34,293 nt of DNA from an archaeon (GTDB lineage Archaea > Nanobdellota > Nanobdellia > Woesearchaeales > ARS49): the NCBI GenBank assembly GCA_020051845.1, contig JAGVQG010000032.1:1-34293 (forward strand), in the 5' to 3' direction. A program made the position numbers and the translations under genes. Shown piece after piece: positions 1 to 10,626 of the stretch. The notes under the pieces were generated by a model. It ran no database searches. It worked only from the letters and a program-made list of their open reading frames with translations, and was not told the DNA's origin. Each line of letters opens with the position of its first letter. Positions within the stretch are counted from its first letter, which is position 1.

Positions 1-75
1 CGTTCCAAAGAGATTCATCGGAAGAAGAGTCTATGTAATCGTAGTCAAAGAATAGATAATTGTGCAACACAGCAC
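1..75. other. Sequence unrelated to the adjoining LamG gene (breakpoint at window edge)
   Basis: The frame of the giant gene stops being LamG-like upstream of about position 75, where a segment such as G-x-IDEVR would be expected before IYNYALS. Instead the frame shows unrelated residues and a TAG at 53-55. The minus strand of positions 2-74 is open (reading VLHNYLFFDYDYID and onward). This fits a rearrangement, a broken gene, or an assembly junction. It is too short to name. Confidence 0.4.
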
Positions 76-3000
76 TATAATCTACAATTATGCCCTGAGC
101 GAAGAACAGATAGCGCTGAGATTCCTGCAGGATGATAGCCAGCTCTCCTACAAAGACGCGAAGAAGGACGGTTTGCCTGCGACCATAAGCGCCTGCGCAA
201 GAGCCTACGACGGGATCTATTACGGTCCGGCGACGTGCAGCAATAACGTGACCCTAATCGCCAACATACCACCAAGCATTAGCCAGGTCACACTCCAGAG
301 CACAGACCCGTCGAAGAACGACACCAGGAACAATCTCACACGCACAATAATAGACGCGAGCAACACGAACAGGACCTTCACGACCTGGCGTGTCGACGGC
401 GAGAACATGACACTTGTCTACCTTCCGTTCGAGAACACCATGAACGAGGACGAGGAGTTCATAAACGAGATCAAAACGACAGAAATCGTGTCAGGGAACC
501 AAGTGGATGTCAATGAAGCAGTCTGGCTGCAGACAGGCGGCCACGATGGCAACGGAACGTATTACTTCAACAGCTCGAACGATCACATTTTCGTGCCTCA
601 ACCCCTAGACCCTGAAGAATACTCATTGGAAGCATGGGTCAAATTGGAGAACCTGCCATCGACATGGATGTCTATCGTATACAGGACTGTCCCTGACCGC
701 GGCTCGTATTACAACAGGGCGCTCGAAGTGCACAATGACACGACGACTAACAAGACCGTGTTCGCGTTGTCCACGTACGACGCCACCGGGCCTCGAGTGT
801 ATGGCACGACCAATCTCAGCACGGGCGTCTGGTATCATGTCATAGCCACTGCCGAAGAAAGCGGAATCATCCGTCTGTATGTGAACGGCAATCTCGAAAA
901 GCAGCAGCACGAGACTATCGCGCACGCAGGAGGATCGACTGGCTGGGGCGTAGGTTATACACAAGATGGCATGTGCGGTGCATGGGGATGCAGTCCTAGC
1001 AACCTGTTCGTCGACGACGTGCGCGTATGGAACCGCGCATTGAGCGAAAGCCAAGTCAGGCTTATCAGCCAAAACAGGGACGACACGATATCAGGAATCC
1101 TCTACCCGAACGATGTCTGGCAAGCCTGCGTCACGCCCTACGACGGATCGCTCTACGGCAACATGACCTGCAGCAACAACGTGACGATAGCGTCAAACGA
1201 ACCACCGGTAATCACTGGCGTTAACCTGCAAAGCACGGATCCGACAAAGAACGACACCCTCAACAATCTCACAAGGACGATCCTCGGCAGTTACGACGAA
1301 GAAAACGAGCCGATCTTCAACATCACAAGCTGGATTGTGAGCGGTTCGCCATTGCAGGCGGTTAACCTGCCGTTCAGGAGCGTCGTGAACCACAGACAGC
1401 GGCATGTAGAGTACGCAAATACAACAGACTACTCAGGAAGCGATAACAACGCAGTCGTGAGCAACGCGCAATGGCAGGACGGCATAGGACCCAAACCCGG
1501 ATACAACAGCTACAACTTCAACGGGTATGACAGTTACATCAGCGCAGGTCCAGGAGGAGCTTTCGACTCGCTTGACGAGTTCAGCGCAGAAGCGTGGTAT
1601 CAGCTGTCGCCTAACATAGACAATCCCACCCATATACTACTCGGCACACATACCTGCGGGGTCGGAAACGGATTCTACCTGATGTATAATGAACCGGGTC
1701 TTTCAATCACGAACGGATCGCTAGTATTCTCCGTCAATAGCGGCGCCACTAACTACTATGTTGCCAGCAATGACAACGAGACAGGCGATGGCGCCTGGCA
1801 CCACCTGGTGGCTGTCAAGAAGCAGAGCAGCATGAAACTGTATCTTGATGGAGCGTTGGACAACGAGAGATCAGACACCGTTACGATGTCAGGTTCCGGA
1901 CAATCGTTATTGATAGGTCGACTACCCAATTGCGGTGCAGGATACGCCACTTTCAACGGCAACATCAGCAACGTTCGCATCTGGAAGAAAGCCCTTGGTC
2001 CGCAGATGGTCAAGGCGCTCTACCAAGGAAGGGATGAATTGATGACGAGCGAACAGCTCTTGCCAAGCGAGCGCTGGCAGTCTTGTGTGACTCCAAACGA
2101 TGGGGAAGGCGATGGCAACATGACTTGCAGCAACAACGTCACAATGCCTCTCCCTGAAATATTGTCGTTGAGCTTGAACACGACGTACAACACCAACTAC
2201 ACCACAGAAAACCTCACTGTCCATTACACGACAAAGGATACCAACATGACCGCAATAGACTTCCGCCGCGATGGAACGAGCGTCATGCTCCTCAATATGC
2301 CGTTCCAGAACAGCGTGACTTCGACAACGACCAATGCAGTGGCAGATTACTCAACCTATGCGAGGAACGGCACGCTCTATAGCGACGGAGGCGCCCTTCC
2401 AGCATACATTGATGGAATCAACGGCAAGGCGTTCTCTTTCGACGGACAGAACAGCATACACGTGACTCTTGCAGGGCTTTCGAAACCGTCAGCATACACG
2501 ATAGAGGCGTGGATAAACGCTGGCGCAGTCCAAGCTGATAAAGCGGGCATCGTGATGTCAGGCGACCAAGTGGGCGACTACGACAACAGTTGGGGAATAG
2601 CGGTCGACAACGACCACCTCTTCTCCTACAATTCATACTCACCCTTCGGCAGCACTGCCGACCCATGGGACATCGAGTTGTTCAGCACCACTGTCGCGAC
2701 GCCTGGCTGGCATCAGATAGTCGTCACTGACAATGGCTTTGAACGCAAGTATTACCGCGATGGCCAGTTCGTGAACAATTTGACCAACGACCCCGCAGTG
2801 CCGAACATCGGCGGCGTCCCTGCCTTGAGCATCGGCAGTTGGGGTAGCGAGGTTTACGGCGCGAACTCCTACTTCGACGGCAGCATAGACGAAGTGCGCA
2901 TCTACGGCTTCGCGCTATCGGCAGACCAGGTCAGGTTCAATTACAATTCTACGAAGGACAGGGTGACTCCAAGGACTTTGGTCACAGGCATCTTCAACAC

Positions 3001-6000
3001 AGGCGAGCTGTGGACCGCGAGGGTCACACCAAGCGACGGCGGCTTCGACGGTCCTTCCAACACCACCAACGAGGTGGAGTTCAGGGACTTCATCGTCACT
3101 TTAGAGCCGCCGACGGACGCGAACAACAGCATAGTGGACAGGCGTTATCTGTCGATAAACGCGAGTTGCGTCATGCCTGATGTCGAGAACGTGTCGATAA
3201 TCGTCATGAATTCGACAGGCCAGGTCATCAACACCAGCGTCGGACCATCCGCTCTTTACGTGAACGTCAGCGTGCCTGATGATGGCGATTATCTGTTCTA
3301 CGCCTCGGCCAATGACGTTTGGGGCAACACTGGAAGGACAGGCACATACATAGTGAATGTCGACACGACTCCTCCAGGGATATTCTTCACTCCACCCACA
3401 GCCGCTAACAAGAGCACCTTCCGCAGCACCATCCCTGTCAACGTGACGATGACAGAGCCGCACCCGAAGAACATCACAGTCTTCCTGTTCAGATACAGCA
3501 TGCCTGGCGCGCCGGTTCAGGAGAACACAAGCGAAACCGTGCCGTTCTTCATCAATTACACAGACCTGCCGCAGGACACCTATTTCTTCAACGCGACAGG
3601 TTTCGACACGCTCAACCACAGCAACTCGAGCGCGACGCGTCTGGTCTACATCGTCGACGTCTCACCTCCTGATGTGTTCATCACAGACCCCAGCCCAGCC
3701 GATGGCGCTTCAACCCCAATACTCAAGCAATTGCTCACCTGCAACTACAGCGACGAGAACCAGCTGAATAATTACTCGATCATAGTGCGCAATGAGAGCG
3801 GTGACACGATCTATGATGAGACCACGCAAGGCAACGGAAGCATCTACAACGAGAGGACCTACACGGTGTACTTGCCGGTCGAACGGCGTGACGCATGGTT
3901 CAACTGGACCTGTTACGCCTATGACACCAACGATGCATACGGAGCCGCGAACGAGAGCAGGATCCTGTACTACAACCTCACCAATGTAAGTGTCGACCTG
4001 ATAAGACCGATTGAACAGGAGACAACAGGAATCGACAGCAACCTGACAAACGACCCGTTGGTCAATTTCAAATGCAATGCGACGCATCCTGCTGGCATCG
4101 ATACGTTCAAGGTGGTCCTCACCAACGGATCTGGCTACATGCAGGAGACACCCCAGCCAGCAGACACCGGAGTATACGACGAACAGGAGATAGATGCAAC
4201 ACTTTGGAACGAGGGCATCTTCAACTGGACCTGCTGGGCCAACGCCACTGACAGCATGAACAACCAGGCAGACTATAGCCGACAAATCGAGCTCGATATC
4301 ACGCCGCCGAACGTCACTTTCGTGCCGCCCACCGACGCCTTCGACACCATTTACGACAGGCATTACATCATTGCGAACATCAGCGTCGAGGACGACCATC
4401 TCAGGGACGGCGAGGTCTGCATCTACGACAATCTCACACTCATAACGTGCAACAGCACTTGGACGCAGGATTCTCCGACATCAGGTCACGCTTCCTTCAA
4501 CAGGTTCATAGTCGATGGGAACTACACAGTGACAGGCCGTGGTTATGACAGGGCAGGCAACGTGGGCAACGCGAGCGGAAAACTGATGCTCCACCACGGA
4601 CCGTATGTGAATCTTATGTCACCTGCGAACATGACAGAATTCAACAGGTTCGACAACACGACAATACACCTCACATGCAACGCGAGCAGCAACCTCAGGC
4701 TCAGGAACGTCACGTTCTTCATCTGGAACGAGACAGGCGACCTCGAAGCCCAGCAGACCTTCAACACGACAGACAAGCTTTTCACGCCCGACCTTGCCTA
4801 TGACACTGGCAGGACCGGCAACTGGAGCTGGGACTGCCTTGCGTCGGATTCGCTTGGCAAATCTTCCTGGAGCGTGAACGGAAGACGGGTGTTCATAGAG
4901 AACTACACCGTGCCGGGTTCAGGCGCTGTCGGAGTTTCATTGATATCACCGCCTGATGAGAGTGTCGTTGCGACGCTCAATCCTGACTTACGATGCAACG
5001 CGAGCAGCACAGCAGGGATCTTCAACGTCACGGTCATACTGTTCGACAATGCGACAGGAACCGAGATCACACGATATCCCCGTCAATATCCACTCCACCC
5101 GACCTATATAGACAACACGACGACCGTGAGCCTTACCGAGGATCAGGCGACTCTCTGGAACTGCCTCGCGTTCGATGGCAACAATATCAGTGGTGAATAT
5201 TTCGAGAACTGGACAGTGACCGCAGACATAACGAAGCCAACAGTCTTCTTCATCGACCCGACACCCGACCCCTACGATATACTTCTGAGCGGCAGCGTGA
5301 CTCTCGCAGCCAACATGACGGACAGCCATCCTGAGAACATCACCCTCGACCACCTACAATGCGGCACGATGTTCGGTTCGCCATATTGCACAGGCACAGG
5401 CACTGATTTCAGGGTGCCTGGCCCGCATGTGGAGGAGCCGTTGTCTCTCGCTGATGGCATCTACAGGACTTATGCATTCGGCCTTGACAAGGCAGGCAAC
5501 ACTAACTACAGCGAGACAAGGTTCTTCCAGATCGACACGACACCACCGACAATTAACGGCATGTCGCCCGACGAGTTTTACTCTTCGCTGAACGTGCCGT
5601 TCTACTGCACAGTCACCGACGACACCAACATCCAGAACATGAGCCTGCTGATCTATGACGAGACAGACGCCCTTGCCTGGCATGATGAGACTGAAGTCGG
5701 CGACAGTGACACATTTTACACCACATACACTCTTTCTGCCAGCCATACACTACCCTACAATGTCCGCTACACATGGAAGTGCGGCGTTACTGACATAGGC
5801 AATCATACCATCTGGAGCGACCTGCACAATATAACCGCAGACAACATCTATCCTGGCATCAGGTTCATCGACTACACCGATCCCCACATGGAAGTGAAAT
5901 TGCCTGGCTACCACCTGTTCACAGCCAACGCGACCATGGACGATGACAATCCGAAGACTTTGAGGATCGAGCTAAGATCGCGCTCCGGCATCCATGATTT

Positions 6001-9000
6001 CGTTGAATCGTCTTCCAACCAGATTGACGCGCACTTCATCGACCCTCCAGAAGGCAAGTATTGGCTACAGGCGTTCGCCACTGACAAGGCATTGAACACG
6101 AACAGCACTGAGACGCGTGTCATGTACATCAGCGACCTCACTCCTCCCACAGTGCACCTGGACTGGCCCTATGACGATTATGTCAGTCCGACCCTTGACC
6201 TGCACACATACTGCAGCGCCACCAGCCCGACAGACGTGACGAACCTCACCTTCTTCTTCTGGGACGTTAACGGCACGTTGCTTGGCTCTGTTCCAAAACC
6301 CACTGAAGTCATGACTCCGTACTCCACATCGACATCAGTGCTTGACGTGCCTGCCGTCAGGGACTTATTGATGACGAACAACGATACCAACATAACCTGG
6401 AACTGCCTTGGCCAGGACGTCGCGAACGTGACCGCCTGGAGCGTCGAGGGCAACAGGACTTTCACCATCCAGCGCAGGAACATTTCGTTCGTCTATCCAA
6501 CAGACACCCCTGGAGCGGTTTACCACAACCGCAATTTCACCTTCTTCAACGTGTCAGTGTTCGACAACGCTTTCAGCAGGCTGTACATGTACTTCACATA
6601 TGATGGATTCGATTACACTGCGCGCGGTAACAGGGTCAGATACCCTATATACTACCACCCTACCGAATACGCGGTGCCAAACGCGTTCGAGAACCACACG
6701 AATCTTCCTGACGATATGTACTACATGCGCGGGTGCGAGGCCGACGTGCATGGCGGATCGCAGTGCACCGAGGAGCGCAATGTCACGATAGACGCAGTGC
6801 CTCCGCGCGTCACTCTTCTCAATCCAAACGCATACCAAGTCATCCCAAGACGCTGGAAATTCGTGTGCGATATCAACGAACGCAGCGCCTGGGGCGGCGG
6901 CAATCCTGTGGCGAACCTTACGCTCTACATCTGGAACAGCACAAACGGACTTGTGCGAAAGGACCAGAGCATCACGCTGGGAGAGAACAGGTACGTTCCG
7001 CCAGAGATATACCTGCGCTCGATCGTCCAGGACAGCTACGTCTTCAGCTACACGTTCAACAGCGATGGAACCTTCAAGTACAACTGCCTCGGTTACAACA
7101 AGCTAGGCAGCAACTCCTGGTCTTACGAAGGCAACAGGACGTTCTACGTGGACGGAAACCTGCCAATAGTTGAATTCCAGCCACCTACAGATGATGACGG
7201 CTCTATTGTGCACAGGACATATATCGAGATCAATGTGAGCGCCGAGAGCGCGCTGCAGACCAATATCACGGCATACCTTTACAACAAGACCGGCAGTATT
7301 GTCGCGACCATCAATACGACGAACTCCCACAACCTGAGGTCGCAGTTCACTGGCTTGCTGCCTGGAAGGTATTCGATACGGGCATCTGCGATAACTGAAG
7401 CCAACACAGTAGGATGGACCTGGGACACAAGATACATAATAGTTGATGACGGCATCGCGCCCGAAATCACTTTCATCGTGCCGCCCACGCCGCCGAACGG
7501 AAGCGTGGTCTTCAATGACACTGTGACCATCAAGGCAGAGGCGAACGAGGAAGTTACCGCGTGCAACCTCACTTACTATTTCAACGTCTCCACAAGCCAC
7601 GCTCTCCTCATAGACGGCGCCGTCGAACCGTTCGAATTCAACGGCTATTATGACATGATCGGATCCTACAACGGCAAGCCGCTCTTCGGCCACTACCGTT
7701 ACTCCGAACCGAAGCTACTCTATAACTCCTACTACTTCTATCCTGACACGGTCCTAAGCTGGCAGATGAGATGGAAGCAACCGCTGGGCAAGGAGTTGTT
7801 CTTCAGGGATTCTATCCTGGGCGATCCCGGCTACCAGGGCGCCTACAGGACCCACCTCGGCTCAGGCGACGTTGCAGCGCACAACACTTCAAGTCCGATA
7901 ACGCGAGTGGTGCCGATGACAGTGGATGACATGGGCTTCACGGCAAGCTACACAATACCCTTCCTCGTGGCAGGCACGCGCTACGTCTACTATGTGAACT
8001 GCATAGACCTCGGGGAGAGCATAGGCCAATCAGAGACCTGGAACTTCATCACCAACAACAACACCCGACCTATGATCACCAACATAACGCTCCTGAGTCT
8101 GCTCGGCACGAACACGACGTATGAGGACCTGCTGGGCAACGCCACTGCTGTCGATGACGACGGCGACATACCGACGATCATCTATGACTACAAGCTGGAT
8201 GGCGTGTCCTTGGCGTCGCTTAACCTGCCATTCGACACTGACAACCACGATTATTCATCCAACCATATCATGGTCAACATCGGAAACGCGACAGCCGGCG
8301 CCTGGCCTAACGTCACAGACGGCAAGCGCGGCGCTGCAAGATGGTTCGATGGCATCGATGATCTCATCGTCACAACTTCCCCTGTCGATGGGGCGGGCGA
8401 CTTCACGCTCAGCGCATGGATCAACACCACCCAGAACGTCGCTCCTGGCGGTTTGACAGATGGACCCGCAGTATTCAGCGTCGCAGGCCAGTTCGGCCTT
8501 GACGTGCGCGGCGGCAATCTCTTCTGGCATGACGAGTTCGGCTCGAGCCACACCTTCGATTCGTCCTTGCCCGTCGCGGACGGAGTTTTCCACCACATCG
8601 CCGTCCGCAGATCAGGCACGACGCTTGACCTGTTCGTTGACGGAGTGAAGGCTTCCACCACGACCGGCAACAATGCTGTCGGAAGCGGCCAGTTGGTGAT
8701 TGGCCATTCGGCGTTCTCTTCAGCGGCCTTCGCAGGGACTATCGATGAGGTGCTCGCGTACAAACGGCCGCTCAGCGACAACCAGATCAGCCTCATGGCC
8801 GCAAGCGTGCCCTGGACAGACATCGCCGATCAGGAGACGGAGATAGGTGAGAACTGGCTGCTGTGCGCCACTCCAAGCGATGGCTTCTGGGACGGCATCA
8901 CGCGCTGCAGCGAGAACATCACCATCGTGTTCTCTGGCGCCATCACGCCAGGGATATCGTTCTCGGTCGAGAACATCACCAACCAGAGCGCCATAGTGAA

Positions 9001-10120
9001 CATCAACACAACGCCGGCGGCGAACATGACATTCAACTACGGCACGACGACGGCGCTTGGCACATTCATCAACAACGCCACTGCCGCCGCGGTCCGCTCC
9101 TTGCTCCTCGACCTCTTACAAAACAACACGCAGTACTTCTTCAACATAACTGCCTGCGCAGAATTGTGCAACAGCACAACAGGATCGTTCACAACGCTGC
9201 AGAACGGAGATACTGGCAACCTCTTCATCGCGCCAGAGGATCCTGGCGTGAACGCAGCCTACAGGTTCGTCGGTGTCAGTGACGGACAGCTTTACAACCT
9301 GCAGCGCTACAACCAGACGCAGACTATCTTCATCGAGGACAACAGCACAGACGAGCTGCGAGTGGAGTTCAGCGGCGACTTCCTGCACCACCCTGTGAAC
9401 ATCTCCAAGTTCAGGATAAACATCACTCCATCCAAGACGCTCGTGGTCTTCGGAGAGACCACTGGCGTTGATCCATCACACACCCTCTACGTTCCGATAG
9501 GTATCGGCACAGGGGTCATTGTCTGTCCCGATGCCACTACACTTGACGATATTAACGACAGGTGCTCCAACTACACGCTCATACCGTTCGCGGATATGCA
9601 CTCAGGAACTGTGCGTGACATCGCGGGCGCGACAGTTACGTCGTCCATAATCAACAACTCACTCTACAAGCTCGCGGGCCTGCACACCACAGGAGTGGGC
9701 GAAGGAGCAGTGACCCACCTGCGCATATGGGATGAGACCGAGACCGACGGCAGCCCCTTCTCAGGCATACAATACTTCCCCGACGACATGGTGACCTTCT
9801 TCGCGAACTACACCAATTCATCAGGATTGCCGGCCAACACCACCGACGGCGCTTGCATCATAGACTTCGAGCCGTTCGGCAGCCCGCAACCCATGACCTG
9901 GAACAGCACGATACAGTTCTTCACCTACAGCCGCTCGTTCACTTCAGTAGGCACATTCAACTGGAGCGTGGACTGCACAGACGTCAATGCCACGGACACT
10001 GTCGTCATCAGCCAAGACGTTCCTGAATACGTGCCTGAGTTCGGCACATGGGCGTTGCTGCTTGCTCTTGGAATAGTGGCGGCAGGCGTCGTAAACATGC
10101 GCGGCAAGCCGAAGAGATGA
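62..10120 (+). CDS. Giant LamG/Ig-like surface glycoprotein, N-terminally truncated, with C-terminal sorting tail
   Basis: A 3352-residue open frame. Concanavalin A-like LamG domains lie at about residues 118-338, 433-656, 740-961 and 2718-2913, each closing with a motif like VRIYGFALS; a fifth remnant (IIYNYALSEEQI) opens the frame. Linkers repeat the pattern C-x-TP-x-DG ... CSNNVT ... LQSTDPTKND. Residues about 1010-2656 are repeated Ig-like modules joined by TPP-type linkers, and an FN3-like stretch lies near 2968-3048. N-x-S/T sequons are extremely frequent, fitting an N-glycosylated extracellular protein. The end (about 3319-3352) reads VPEFGTW, then a hydrophobic helix, then basic residues, like PEF/archaeosortase sorting tails. 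Likely role: surface layer, adhesion or glycan binding (inferred). The GTG at 62 is only the first start in the frame, it sits inside a LamG fold, and an in-frame stop occurs at 53-55, so the real N-terminus and signal peptide are missing. Confidence 0.88.
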   Translation: MQHSTIIYNYALSEEQIALRFLQDDSQLSYKDAKKDGLPATISACARAYDGIYYGPATCSNNVTLIANIPPSISQVTLQSTDPSKNDTRNNLTRTIIDASNTNRTFTTWRVDGENMTLVYLPFENTMNEDEEFINEIKTTEIVSGNQVDVNEAVWLQTGGHDGNGTYYFNSSNDHIFVPQPLDPEEYSLEAWVKLENLPSTWMSIVYRTVPDRGSYYNRALEVHNDTTTNKTVFALSTYDATGPRVYGTTNLSTGVWYHVIATAEESGIIRLYVNGNLEKQQHETIAHAGGSTGWGVGYTQDGMCGAWGCSPSNLFVDDVRVWNRALSESQVRLISQNRDDTISGILYPNDVWQACVTPYDGSLYGNMTCSNNVTIASNEPPVITGVNLQSTDPTKNDTLNNLTRTILGSYDEENEPIFNITSWIVSGSPLQAVNLPFRSVVNHRQRHVEYANTTDYSGSDNNAVVSNAQWQDGIGPKPGYNSYNFNGYDSYISAGPGGAFDSLDEFSAEAWYQLSPNIDNPTHILLGTHTCGVGNGFYLMYNEPGLSITNGSLVFSVNSGATNYYVASNDNETGDGAWHHLVAVKKQSSMKLYLDGALDNERSDTVTMSGSGQSLLIGRLPNCGAGYATFNGNISNVRIWKKALGPQMVKALYQGRDELMTSEQLLPSERWQSCVTPNDGEGDGNMTCSNNVTMPLPEILSLSLNTTYNTNYTTENLTVHYTTKDTNMTAIDFRRDGTSVMLLNMPFQNSVTSTTTNAVADYSTYARNGTLYSDGGALPAYIDGINGKAFSFDGQNSIHVTLAGLSKPSAYTIEAWINAGAVQADKAGIVMSGDQVGDYDNSWGIAVDNDHLFSYNSYSPFGSTADPWDIELFSTTVATPGWHQIVVTDNGFERKYYRDGQFVNNLTNDPAVPNIGGVPALSIGSWGSEVYGANSYFDGSIDEVRIYGFALSADQVRFNYNSTKDRVTPRTLVTGIFNTGELWTARVTPSDGGFDGPSNTTNEVEFRDFIVTLEPPTDANNSIVDRRYLSINASCVMPDVENVSIIVMNSTGQVINTSVGPSALYVNVSVPDDGDYLFYASANDVWGNTGRTGTYIVNVDTTPPGIFFTPPTAANKSTFRSTIPVNVTMTEPHPKNITVFLFRYSMPGAPVQENTSETVPFFINYTDLPQDTYFFNATGFDTLNHSNSSATRLVYIVDVSPPDVFITDPSPADGASTPILKQLLTCNYSDENQLNNYSIIVRNESGDTIYDETTQGNGSIYNERTYTVYLPVERRDAWFNWTCYAYDTNDAYGAANESRILYYNLTNVSVDLIRPIEQETTGIDSNLTNDPLVNFKCNATHPAGIDTFKVVLTNGSGYMQETPQPADTGVYDEQEIDATLWNEGIFNWTCWANATDSMNNQADYSRQIELDITPPNVTFVPPTDAFDTIYDRHYIIANISVEDDHLRDGEVCIYDNLTLITCNSTWTQDSPTSGHASFNRFIVDGNYTVTGRGYDRAGNVGNASGKLMLHHGPYVNLMSPANMTEFNRFDNTTIHLTCNASSNLRLRNVTFFIWNETGDLEAQQTFNTTDKLFTPDLAYDTGRTGNWSWDCLASDSLGKSSWSVNGRRVFIENYTVPGSGAVGVSLISPPDESVVATLNPDLRCNASSTAGIFNVTVILFDNATGTEITRYPRQYPLHPTYIDNTTTVSLTEDQATLWNCLAFDGNNISGEYFENWTVTADITKPTVFFIDPTPDPYDILLSGSVTLAANMTDSHPENITLDHLQCGTMFGSPYCTGTGTDFRVPGPHVEEPLSLADGIYRTYAFGLDKAGNTNYSETRFFQIDTTPPTINGMSPDEFYSSLNVPFYCTVTDDTNIQNMSLLIYDETDALAWHDETEVGDSDTFYTTYTLSASHTLPYNVRYTWKCGVTDIGNHTIWSDLHNITADNIYPGIRFIDYTDPHMEVKLPGYHLFTANATMDDDNPKTLRIELRSRSGIHDFVESSSNQIDAHFIDPPEGKYWLQAFATDKALNTNSTETRVMYISDLTPPTVHLDWPYDDYVSPTLDLHTYCSATSPTDVTNLTFFFWDVNGTLLGSVPKPTEVMTPYSTSTSVLDVPAVRDLLMTNNDTNITWNCLGQDVANVTAWSVEGNRTFTIQRRNISFVYPTDTPGAVYHNRNFTFFNVSVFDNAFSRLYMYFTYDGFDYTARGNRVRYPIYYHPTEYAVPNAFENHTNLPDDMYYMRGCEADVHGGSQCTEERNVTIDAVPPRVTLLNPNAYQVIPRRWKFVCDINERSAWGGGNPVANLTLYIWNSTNGLVRKDQSITLGENRYVPPEIYLRSIVQDSYVFSYTFNSDGTFKYNCLGYNKLGSNSWSYEGNRTFYVDGNLPIVEFQPPTDDDGSIVHRTYIEINVSAESALQTNITAYLYNKTGSIVATINTTNSHNLRSQFTGLLPGRYSIRASAITEANTVGWTWDTRYIIVDDGIAPEITFIVPPTPPNGSVVFNDTVTIKAEANEEVTACNLTYYFNVSTSHALLIDGAVEPFEFNGYYDMIGSYNGKPLFGHYRYSEPKLLYNSYYFYPDTVLSWQMRWKQPLGKELFFRDSILGDPGYQGAYRTHLGSGDVAAHNTSSPITRVVPMTVDDMGFTASYTIPFLVAGTRYVYYVNCIDLGESIGQSETWNFITNNNTRPMITNITLLSLLGTNTTYEDLLGNATAVDDDGDIPTIIYDYKLDGVSLASLNLPFDTDNHDYSSNHIMVNIGNATAGAWPNVTDGKRGAARWFDGIDDLIVTTSPVDGAGDFTLSAWINTTQNVAPGGLTDGPAVFSVAGQFGLDVRGGNLFWHDEFGSSHTFDSSLPVADGVFHHIAVRRSGTTLDLFVDGVKASTTTGNNAVGSGQLVIGHSAFSSAAFAGTIDEVLAYKRPLSDNQISLMAASVPWTDIADQETEIGENWLLCATPSDGFWDGITRCSENITIVFSGAITPGISFSVENITNQSAIVNINTTPAANMTFNYGTTTALGTFINNATAAAVRSLLLDLLQNNTQYFFNITACAELCNSTTGSFTTLQNGDTGNLFIAPEDPGVNAAYRFVGVSDGQLYNLQRYNQTQTIFIEDNSTDELRVEFSGDFLHHPVNISKFRINITPSKTLVVFGETTGVDPSHTLYVPIGIGTGVIVCPDATTLDDINDRCSNYTLIPFADMHSGTVRDIAGATVTSSIINNSLYKLAGLHTTGVGEGAVTHLRIWDETETDGSPFSGIQYFPDDMVTFFANYTNSSGLPANTTDGACIIDFEPFGSPQPMTWNSTIQFFTYSRSFTSVGTFNWSVDCTDVNATDTVVISQDVPEYVPEFGTWALLLALGIVAAGVVNMRGKPKR

Positions 10121-10145
10121 ACAAGACAAAAAGCGGTCTTCTTAG

Positions 10146-10217
10146 AAAAAAATAAGTGGAGCGCAGAAGCGTCATTTGACGACAAGCCAAGGGGCTCATC
10201 CGCACTCCGTTTGTAAC
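10146..10217 (-). ncRNA. Candidate small structured RNA with TATA box and U-tract
   Basis: On the minus strand a TATA-like box (ATTTATAT, 10241-10248) is followed about 25-30 nt later by a foldable segment. A 7-bp closing stem pairs GGAGUGC (10208-10202) with GCGCUCC (10164-10158), with one G-U pair that would be a C-A mismatch on the other strand. Inside are hairpins AGCC-CCUU-GGCU and CGUC-AAAU-GACG, giving a three-way junction. Seven U residues (10152-10146) follow, like an archaeal terminator. No protein frame explains this. It lacks tRNA arms and I see no complete C/D or H/ACA boxes. It could instead be the structured 3' UTR of the upstream Pth2 gene. The family is not recognised. Confidence 0.42.
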
Positions 10218-10240
10218 AGGGATCATGATACATCTTTAGC

Positions 10241-10248
10241 ATATAAAT
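10241..10248 (-). promoter_or_regulatory. TATA box for the candidate small RNA
   Basis: ATTTATAT on the minus strand lies between the end of the Pth2 gene (10276) and the foldable segment. No minus-strand protein start lies within 100 nt downstream, so it is only useful if a non-coding transcript begins near 10217. Confidence 0.4.
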
Positions 10249-10275
10249 ATTTGCCTAGGACCATAATCAACAAAT

Positions 10276-10626
10276 CTACGACATCAATTTCAGATCGCCT
10301 GTAACAGAGTCTATCTTCTCTTCCTTGTCAGGCCCGATGCCGAGGCAGGTGGTCGTTCCTGGTTCGAGGTGCGTGCGACCCGCGTCGATTATCAAGCCGC
10401 AGACAAGCCCCGCATCCTCAGCCAACTGTTTGTATTTGAGAAGTTCATCCAAATCCTTGACTTTGAGCACTGATTTCTTCATGCCCTGCGAACGCCATTT
10501 CGAGATGTCATCCTTGTGTGATTTGAGGAGCGCTTCTGTGGACGCGTGCGCCACCTGCGCGCTCATCTTGCCCCTAGATAACTTGAGGTCGTCCCTGACA
10601 ATGATGACTTGCTTGTATTCTGCCAT
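10276..10626 (-). CDS. pth2: Peptidyl-tRNA hydrolase, archaeal/eukaryotic type (Pth2)
   Basis: A 116-residue protein of normal Pth2 length. Pth2 releases peptides from peptidyl-tRNAs that drop off ribosomes, recycling tRNA in the cytoplasm. Hallmarks are the N-terminal strand QVIIVRDDLKLSRGK, the conserved helix start GKMSAQVAHAS, the segment DAGRTHLEPGTTTCLGIGP, and the terminal VTGDLKLM. The start at 10626 is supported by a TATA-like box on the same strand at 10648-10656, about 26 nt upstream, so the mRNA is probably leaderless. It diverges from the FabH gene across an 84-nt intergenic region. Nothing is missing from the family core. Confidence 0.95.
   Translation of the reverse strand: MAEYKQVIIVRDDLKLSRGKMSAQVAHASTEALLKSHKDDISKWRSQGMKKSVLKVKDLDELLKYKQLAEDAGLVCGLIIDAGRTHLEPGTTTCLGIGPDKEEKIDSVTGDLKLMS

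Follow-up and report, generated by a model that had tools for sequence, protein, structure and literature searches.

The 155-bp spacer described here lies in a window of 34,293 nucleotides, which is the whole stretch of DNA that was analysed and represents contig C55 in a genome assembly of 1.33 Mb. The spacer is flanked by two convergent genes (Table 1), namely a giant gene for a surface-type protein and pth2, which encodes a peptidyl-tRNA hydrolase whose closest named relatives are found in Woesearchaeota MAGs. Within the spacer is a segment that folds strongly as RNA, and pth2 is the gene upstream of this segment on the same strand. The giant surface-type protein is 3352 amino acids long and ends in the C-terminal sequence PEFGTWALLLALGIVAAGVVNMRGKPKR, which we take to resemble an archaeosortase-type sorting signal.

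Table 1. Genes and predicted elements at the pth2 spacer; positions are those of the window.
Feature	Position	Strand	Basis or remark
Giant surface-type protein gene	62-10120	+	One flank of the 155-bp spacer
pth2, peptidyl-tRNA hydrolase; gene upstream, same strand as fold	10276..10626	-	Pfam PF01981, E 2.9e-39
BRE/TATA-like element, CAAATA TTTATAT	10241..10253	-	Score 6.85, tRNA-promoter matrix
Predicted transcription start, 30 nt past first T of TATA	10217..10217	-	Inferred; archaeal promoter spacing
Closing stem, 5' strand, GGAGUGCGGA	10199..10208	-	RNA fold
Hairpin 1, GAGCC-CCUU-GGCUU	10184..10197	-	RNA fold
Hairpin 2, CGUC-AAAU-GACG	10170..10181	-	RNA fold
Closing stem, 3' strand, UCUGCGCUCC	10158..10167	-	RNA fold
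U7 tract, probable terminator shared by pth2 and candidate RNA	10146..10152	-	Gene 3' ends are enriched in T6+ runs
Small RNA candidate of ~72 nt, or final part of pth2 3' UTR	10146..10217	-	TATA/RNA/U6 joint scan

When read on the minus strand, positions 10208-10158 are predicted to fold into a three-way junction, where a closing stem of 10 bp with two G-U pairs encloses two hairpins of 4-5 bp, the first of which carries a third G-U pair. Both hairpin loops are 4 nt and the junction strands are 1-2 nt long, and with loops of this size little single-stranded sequence is on offer for pairing. An earlier sequence-only reading of this DNA had recognized the closing stem and the two enclosed hairpins, but had counted 7 bp and a single G-U pair in the stem. 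The minus-strand fold has a minimum free energy of -25.5 kcal/mol and a z of -4.38, a stability that was reached in none of 200 shuffles. On the plus strand of the same segment the fold is weaker and ordinary (z -0.98), which agrees with the earlier suggestion that the G-U pairs favour the minus strand as the RNA.

Upstream of the fold, the BRE/TATA-like element was identified with a matrix derived from 23 of this genome's own tRNA promoters. These tRNA promoters score 9.8-18.3 (6.7-17.6 by leave-one-out), while divergent gene starts have a median of 7.1. Per kb, divergent spacers contain 8.4 matches at the 6.85 level, convergent spacers 1.3 and coding DNA 0.23, an ordering that indicates that the matrix works. 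It is therefore plausible, judging from the match, that the element is a promoter similar in strength to mRNA promoters and below nearly all tRNA promoters. The TATA box (10247-10241) is located 39 nt ahead of the closing stem, not the 25-30 nt given previously, and in tRNA genes of this genome the corresponding distance to the mature 5' end is 31-40 nt. The 39-nt spacing fits a transcription start about 9 nt ahead of the closing stem. The chance of an equal TATA match at a fitting distance ranges from 1.3%, based on convergent spacers, to 4.3%, based on shuffles of the local AT-rich spacer, and a match of 6.85 anywhere is obtained in 16% of the local-spacer shuffles.

On the downstream side, five unpaired bases (ACUUA) lie between the closing stem and the U7 tract. 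The sequence-only reading had described seven U following the stem, and these are present, but the intervening bases mean that the arrangement is not a canonical stem-then-U terminator. A bacterial-type intrinsic terminator, with a U-run 0-2 nt past the stem, was rejected on the same ground, and a bacterial-style terminator scan did not call the element. Of the promoter and terminator proposed earlier for an RNA of its own, what stands is a plausible but modest TATA match and the U7 tract, and not a stem-then-U terminator. In those archaea that have been studied, U-tracts act in termination and do not strictly require a hairpin (PMC8716108), and the mostly fold-free U-tract ends of this genome agree with this (median z -0.49 at U-tract gene 3' ends). 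Runs of six or more T occur at 0.73-1.1 per kb at gene 3' ends versus 0.39-0.43 per kb for comparison. A strong fold (z <= -3.5 together with E <= -20) ahead of the U-tract was found at 4 of 76 gene 3' ends, the pth2 element being among them. Between the pth2 stop and U7 there is not a single run of four or more T, so that U7 is the first U-tract past the stop; since no earlier U-tract follows the gene, the pth2 mRNA should end at U7 with the fold included. Archaeal U-tract terminators are recognized as a U-tract of at least four at a transcript 3' end, and here U7 is observed and the transcript end is predicted.

Several searches were directed at relatives of the element. At the DNA level, a search through 353 genomes of the order, in which the same genus is absent, returned only T-runs or short chance matches. 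The top DNA match (genome G159, 87% over 31 nt) was not accepted as a homologue, as it represents a T-run past a tRNA and has only TTTTTTTCTAAGAAGAC in common with the element. A covariance model, which was built on a single sequence and could thus be escaped by distant homologues, gave nothing credible in the family and order; one match (G130) lies inside an ORF and does not share the closing stem, and another (G007) lacks a matching fold and looks like coding sequence. The same model had no match at 61 pth2 loci of other genomes, relatives do not preserve synteny on the downstream side of pth2, and a comparably strong fold is present downstream of pth2 in only one of 59 relatives, which together rule out a conserved pth2 3' UTR. 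Phage records gave no match, viral contigs gave a single exact 16-mer match that does not extend further, and a second copy was not found in the element's own genome. The lack of a homologue implies either a lineage-specific or fast-evolving element or one that is not a functional RNA.

It had been suggested that no known RNA class fits, and this is supported by both the Rfam scan and a reading of motifs. Rfam gave nothing at the gathering cut-off, and with E values up to 10 it gave SNORD111 alone, at 16.3 bits compared to the 46 needed. Archaeal tRNA genes are like the element in their TATA-to-RNA-start spacing, a closing stem of at least 7 bp, a downstream U-run and a similar gene size; however, neither ARAGORN nor Rfam reports a tRNA here, and the element has no four-arm cloverleaf with T-loop and anticodon loop, both of its loops being 4 nt. 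An archaeal C/D box sRNA was rejected because neither CUGA nor a full RUGAUGA occurs in 10217-10146 of the minus strand. In the case of an archaeal H/ACA sRNA, the 3' flank reads ACUUAU, the sole ACA is in the 5' leader and the internal pocket is absent, while a hammerhead ribozyme is excluded by junction strands of 1-2 nt without CUGANGA and GAAA. A small protein gene (ORF 10226..10008, minus strand) has a GGAG a few bases ahead of an in-frame ATG just within the fold. This frame, however, has a hexamer coding score of -48.7 as opposed to +75.0 for pth2, crosses U7 and enters the giant gene's end in antisense, has no Pfam match and corresponds to no conserved protein among relatives, making a protein product highly improbable. 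The minus-strand ORFs that overlap the element score as non-coding by the same measure.

The background frequency of such arrangements was assessed over 1.06 Mb of sequence, 80% of the genome, which was read as separate loci with genes from a crude home-made call. A TATA match followed by an RNA of 40-130 nt and a U-tract of six or longer was found at five sites, among which the element downstream of pth2 is second by energy per base. The most stable is a simple hairpin at about 9969 of locus L150, the third is an intron-containing tRNA-Arg, and the other two fold weakly. Fold strength by itself is unremarkable, as the element comes 52nd when 277 intergenic segment-strands are ranked, and about tenth when only those of convergent spacers are considered. 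Perfect hairpins reach their highest density in convergent spacers, with 1.95 per kb compared to 0.35 per kb in coding DNA. This background of hairpin-free U-tract ends and hairpin-rich convergent spacers aids in judging similar candidates. The L150 site (9969-10020) is itself a spacer feature opposite in orientation to both neighbouring called genes, with a TATA score of 9.67, a perfect hairpin of 15 bp and a U6 tract.

Taken as a whole, the element is real and ordinary in kind, and it makes a fair small RNA candidate by its anatomy and a weak one by its conservation. On balance it is probably the folded 3' end of the pth2 message, ending at U7, with or without an extra short transcript. The strand asymmetry of the fold, the position of U7 as the first U-tract, the enrichment of U-tracts at gene 3' ends, the rarity of a fold combined with a U-tract and of the whole TATA/RNA/U6 arrangement, the TATA spacing and the non-coding ORFs point to this; the lack of a homologue in which covariation could show, the middling rank among intergenic folds, the abundance of hairpins in convergent spacers and a TATA score below that of nearly all tRNA promoters weigh against it. 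A structured 3' UTR of Pth2 had been offered earlier as a second option, and it is at least as well supported as the first, since U7 is the first U-tract past the gene, although not as a conserved pth2 feature. In the proposed mechanism, the minus strand past pth2 would be transcribed through the three-way junction to U7 (10152-10146), where transcription would end archaeal-style, by RNA polymerase release or aCPSF1 cleavage, the hairpin being dispensable. The fold at the 3' end of the pth2 message might then shield it against 3'-5' decay. The TATA within the pth2 3' UTR may also fire a second transcript of about 72 nt from ~10217, in which case the same segment would be released as a small RNA as well, with the terminator of pth2.

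There is close to an even chance that the element is only a stem-loop in the 3' UTR or terminator of pth2, set between convergent genes, with the TATA a chance product of an AT-rich spacer. The density of hairpins in convergent spacers, the ease with which an equal TATA score arises somewhere in local shuffles and the place of U7 past pth2 all fit this, but a match at the right spacing is rarely produced by chance, a hairpin with a U-tract is unusual as a terminator in this genome, and five bases part the stem from U7. That a separate lineage-specific small RNA shares the U-tract terminator of pth2, a reading which overlaps that of a folded pth2 3' end, is possible on the anatomy described above, though we lean against it. 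That the locus is a small RNA gene in its own right, in which a dedicated archaeal promoter and a U-tract terminator give a stable three-way-junction RNA of about 72 nt unrelated to pth2 expression, is somewhat less likely than not; a TATA at stable-RNA spacing, a strong strand-specific fold, the U7 tract and a stability second among the five such arrangements speak for it, whereas the promoter is below nearly all tRNA promoters, searches of the 353 genomes of the order gave no homologue, and there is no other nearby U-tract for pth2, so that such an RNA and the pth2 mRNA would at the least overlap. Finally, the element might be a chance fold in a non-functional spacer, or a decayed copy of a twin-hairpin repeat that is dispersed in this genome. 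Equally strong folds are frequent in the genome's spacers, relatives conserve nothing, and the repeat shares with the element two adjacent short hairpins in an intergenic setting, but the difference in fold strength between strands argues against chance. The repeat also has GCGC or GCAC between its hairpins and near-constant arms (ACGRARC/GYTYCGT), neither of which the element has, and the element has no second copy; a degenerate unit of the form GCA-hairpin-GCGC-hairpin-TGC was rejected for the same differences in spacer and arms. An origin by chance or by decay is quite unlikely.

In bacteria, small RNAs derived from 3' UTRs with their own promoter are known. Like these, the element would combine a promoter in a 3' UTR, a short structured RNA and a terminator common with the mRNA; it differs in being a prediction from sequence, with an archaeal TATA and U-tract termination. 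Compared to archaeal U-tract terminators linked to aCPSF1 (PMC8716108), it is similar in placing U7 at a presumed mRNA 3' end, but a strong three-way junction precedes U7, while most U-tract ends in this genome are fold-free. The candidate RNA would be complementary over its full length to any plus-strand transcript that runs past the stop of the giant gene. We regard it as rather unlikely that the element represents an archaeal small RNA that is lineage-specific, has a three-way junction and is expressed from its own TATA in the pth2 3' UTR, across from the giant gene's 3' flank. Small RNAs in DPANN archaea appear little studied, and if true, such an RNA would add a new family to those of these archaea. 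As a separate RNA, the element would be a computed small RNA candidate, with both its 5' and 3' ends exactly predicted, of a DPANN archaeon that is uncultured; as only the 3' end of pth2, it would be ordinary.

The twin-hairpin family mentioned above is dispersed and intergenic, with the form xGCA-hairpin-GCGC or GCAC-hairpin-TGCG, in which the arms resemble ACGRARC/GYTYCGT and vary yet remain complementary. Its units, which are often near tRNA genes, include L172:7138-7175, L172:12117-12232, L185:2457-2611, L161:1187-1255, L169:9887-9926, L187:2904-2941 and L163:210-296. The one-hairpin pattern of the family has 13 matches in its own genome and 0-2 in each of 56 relatives. In the 16S-23S rRNA spacer (L143:2891-3007), the T-loop of a tRNA-Ala (UGC) is apparently split by about 45 nt that are capable of forming a hairpin; this tRNA has a partial Rfam match and was missed by ARAGORN. 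At L172:12050-12250 and L161:1060-1180, partial second tRNA 3' ends (GGCCAGAGCAGATTTT and AATCCTGGCGGCGGCG) flank arrays of hairpins, which lie downstream of tRNA genes as if insertion had occurred at tRNA ends.
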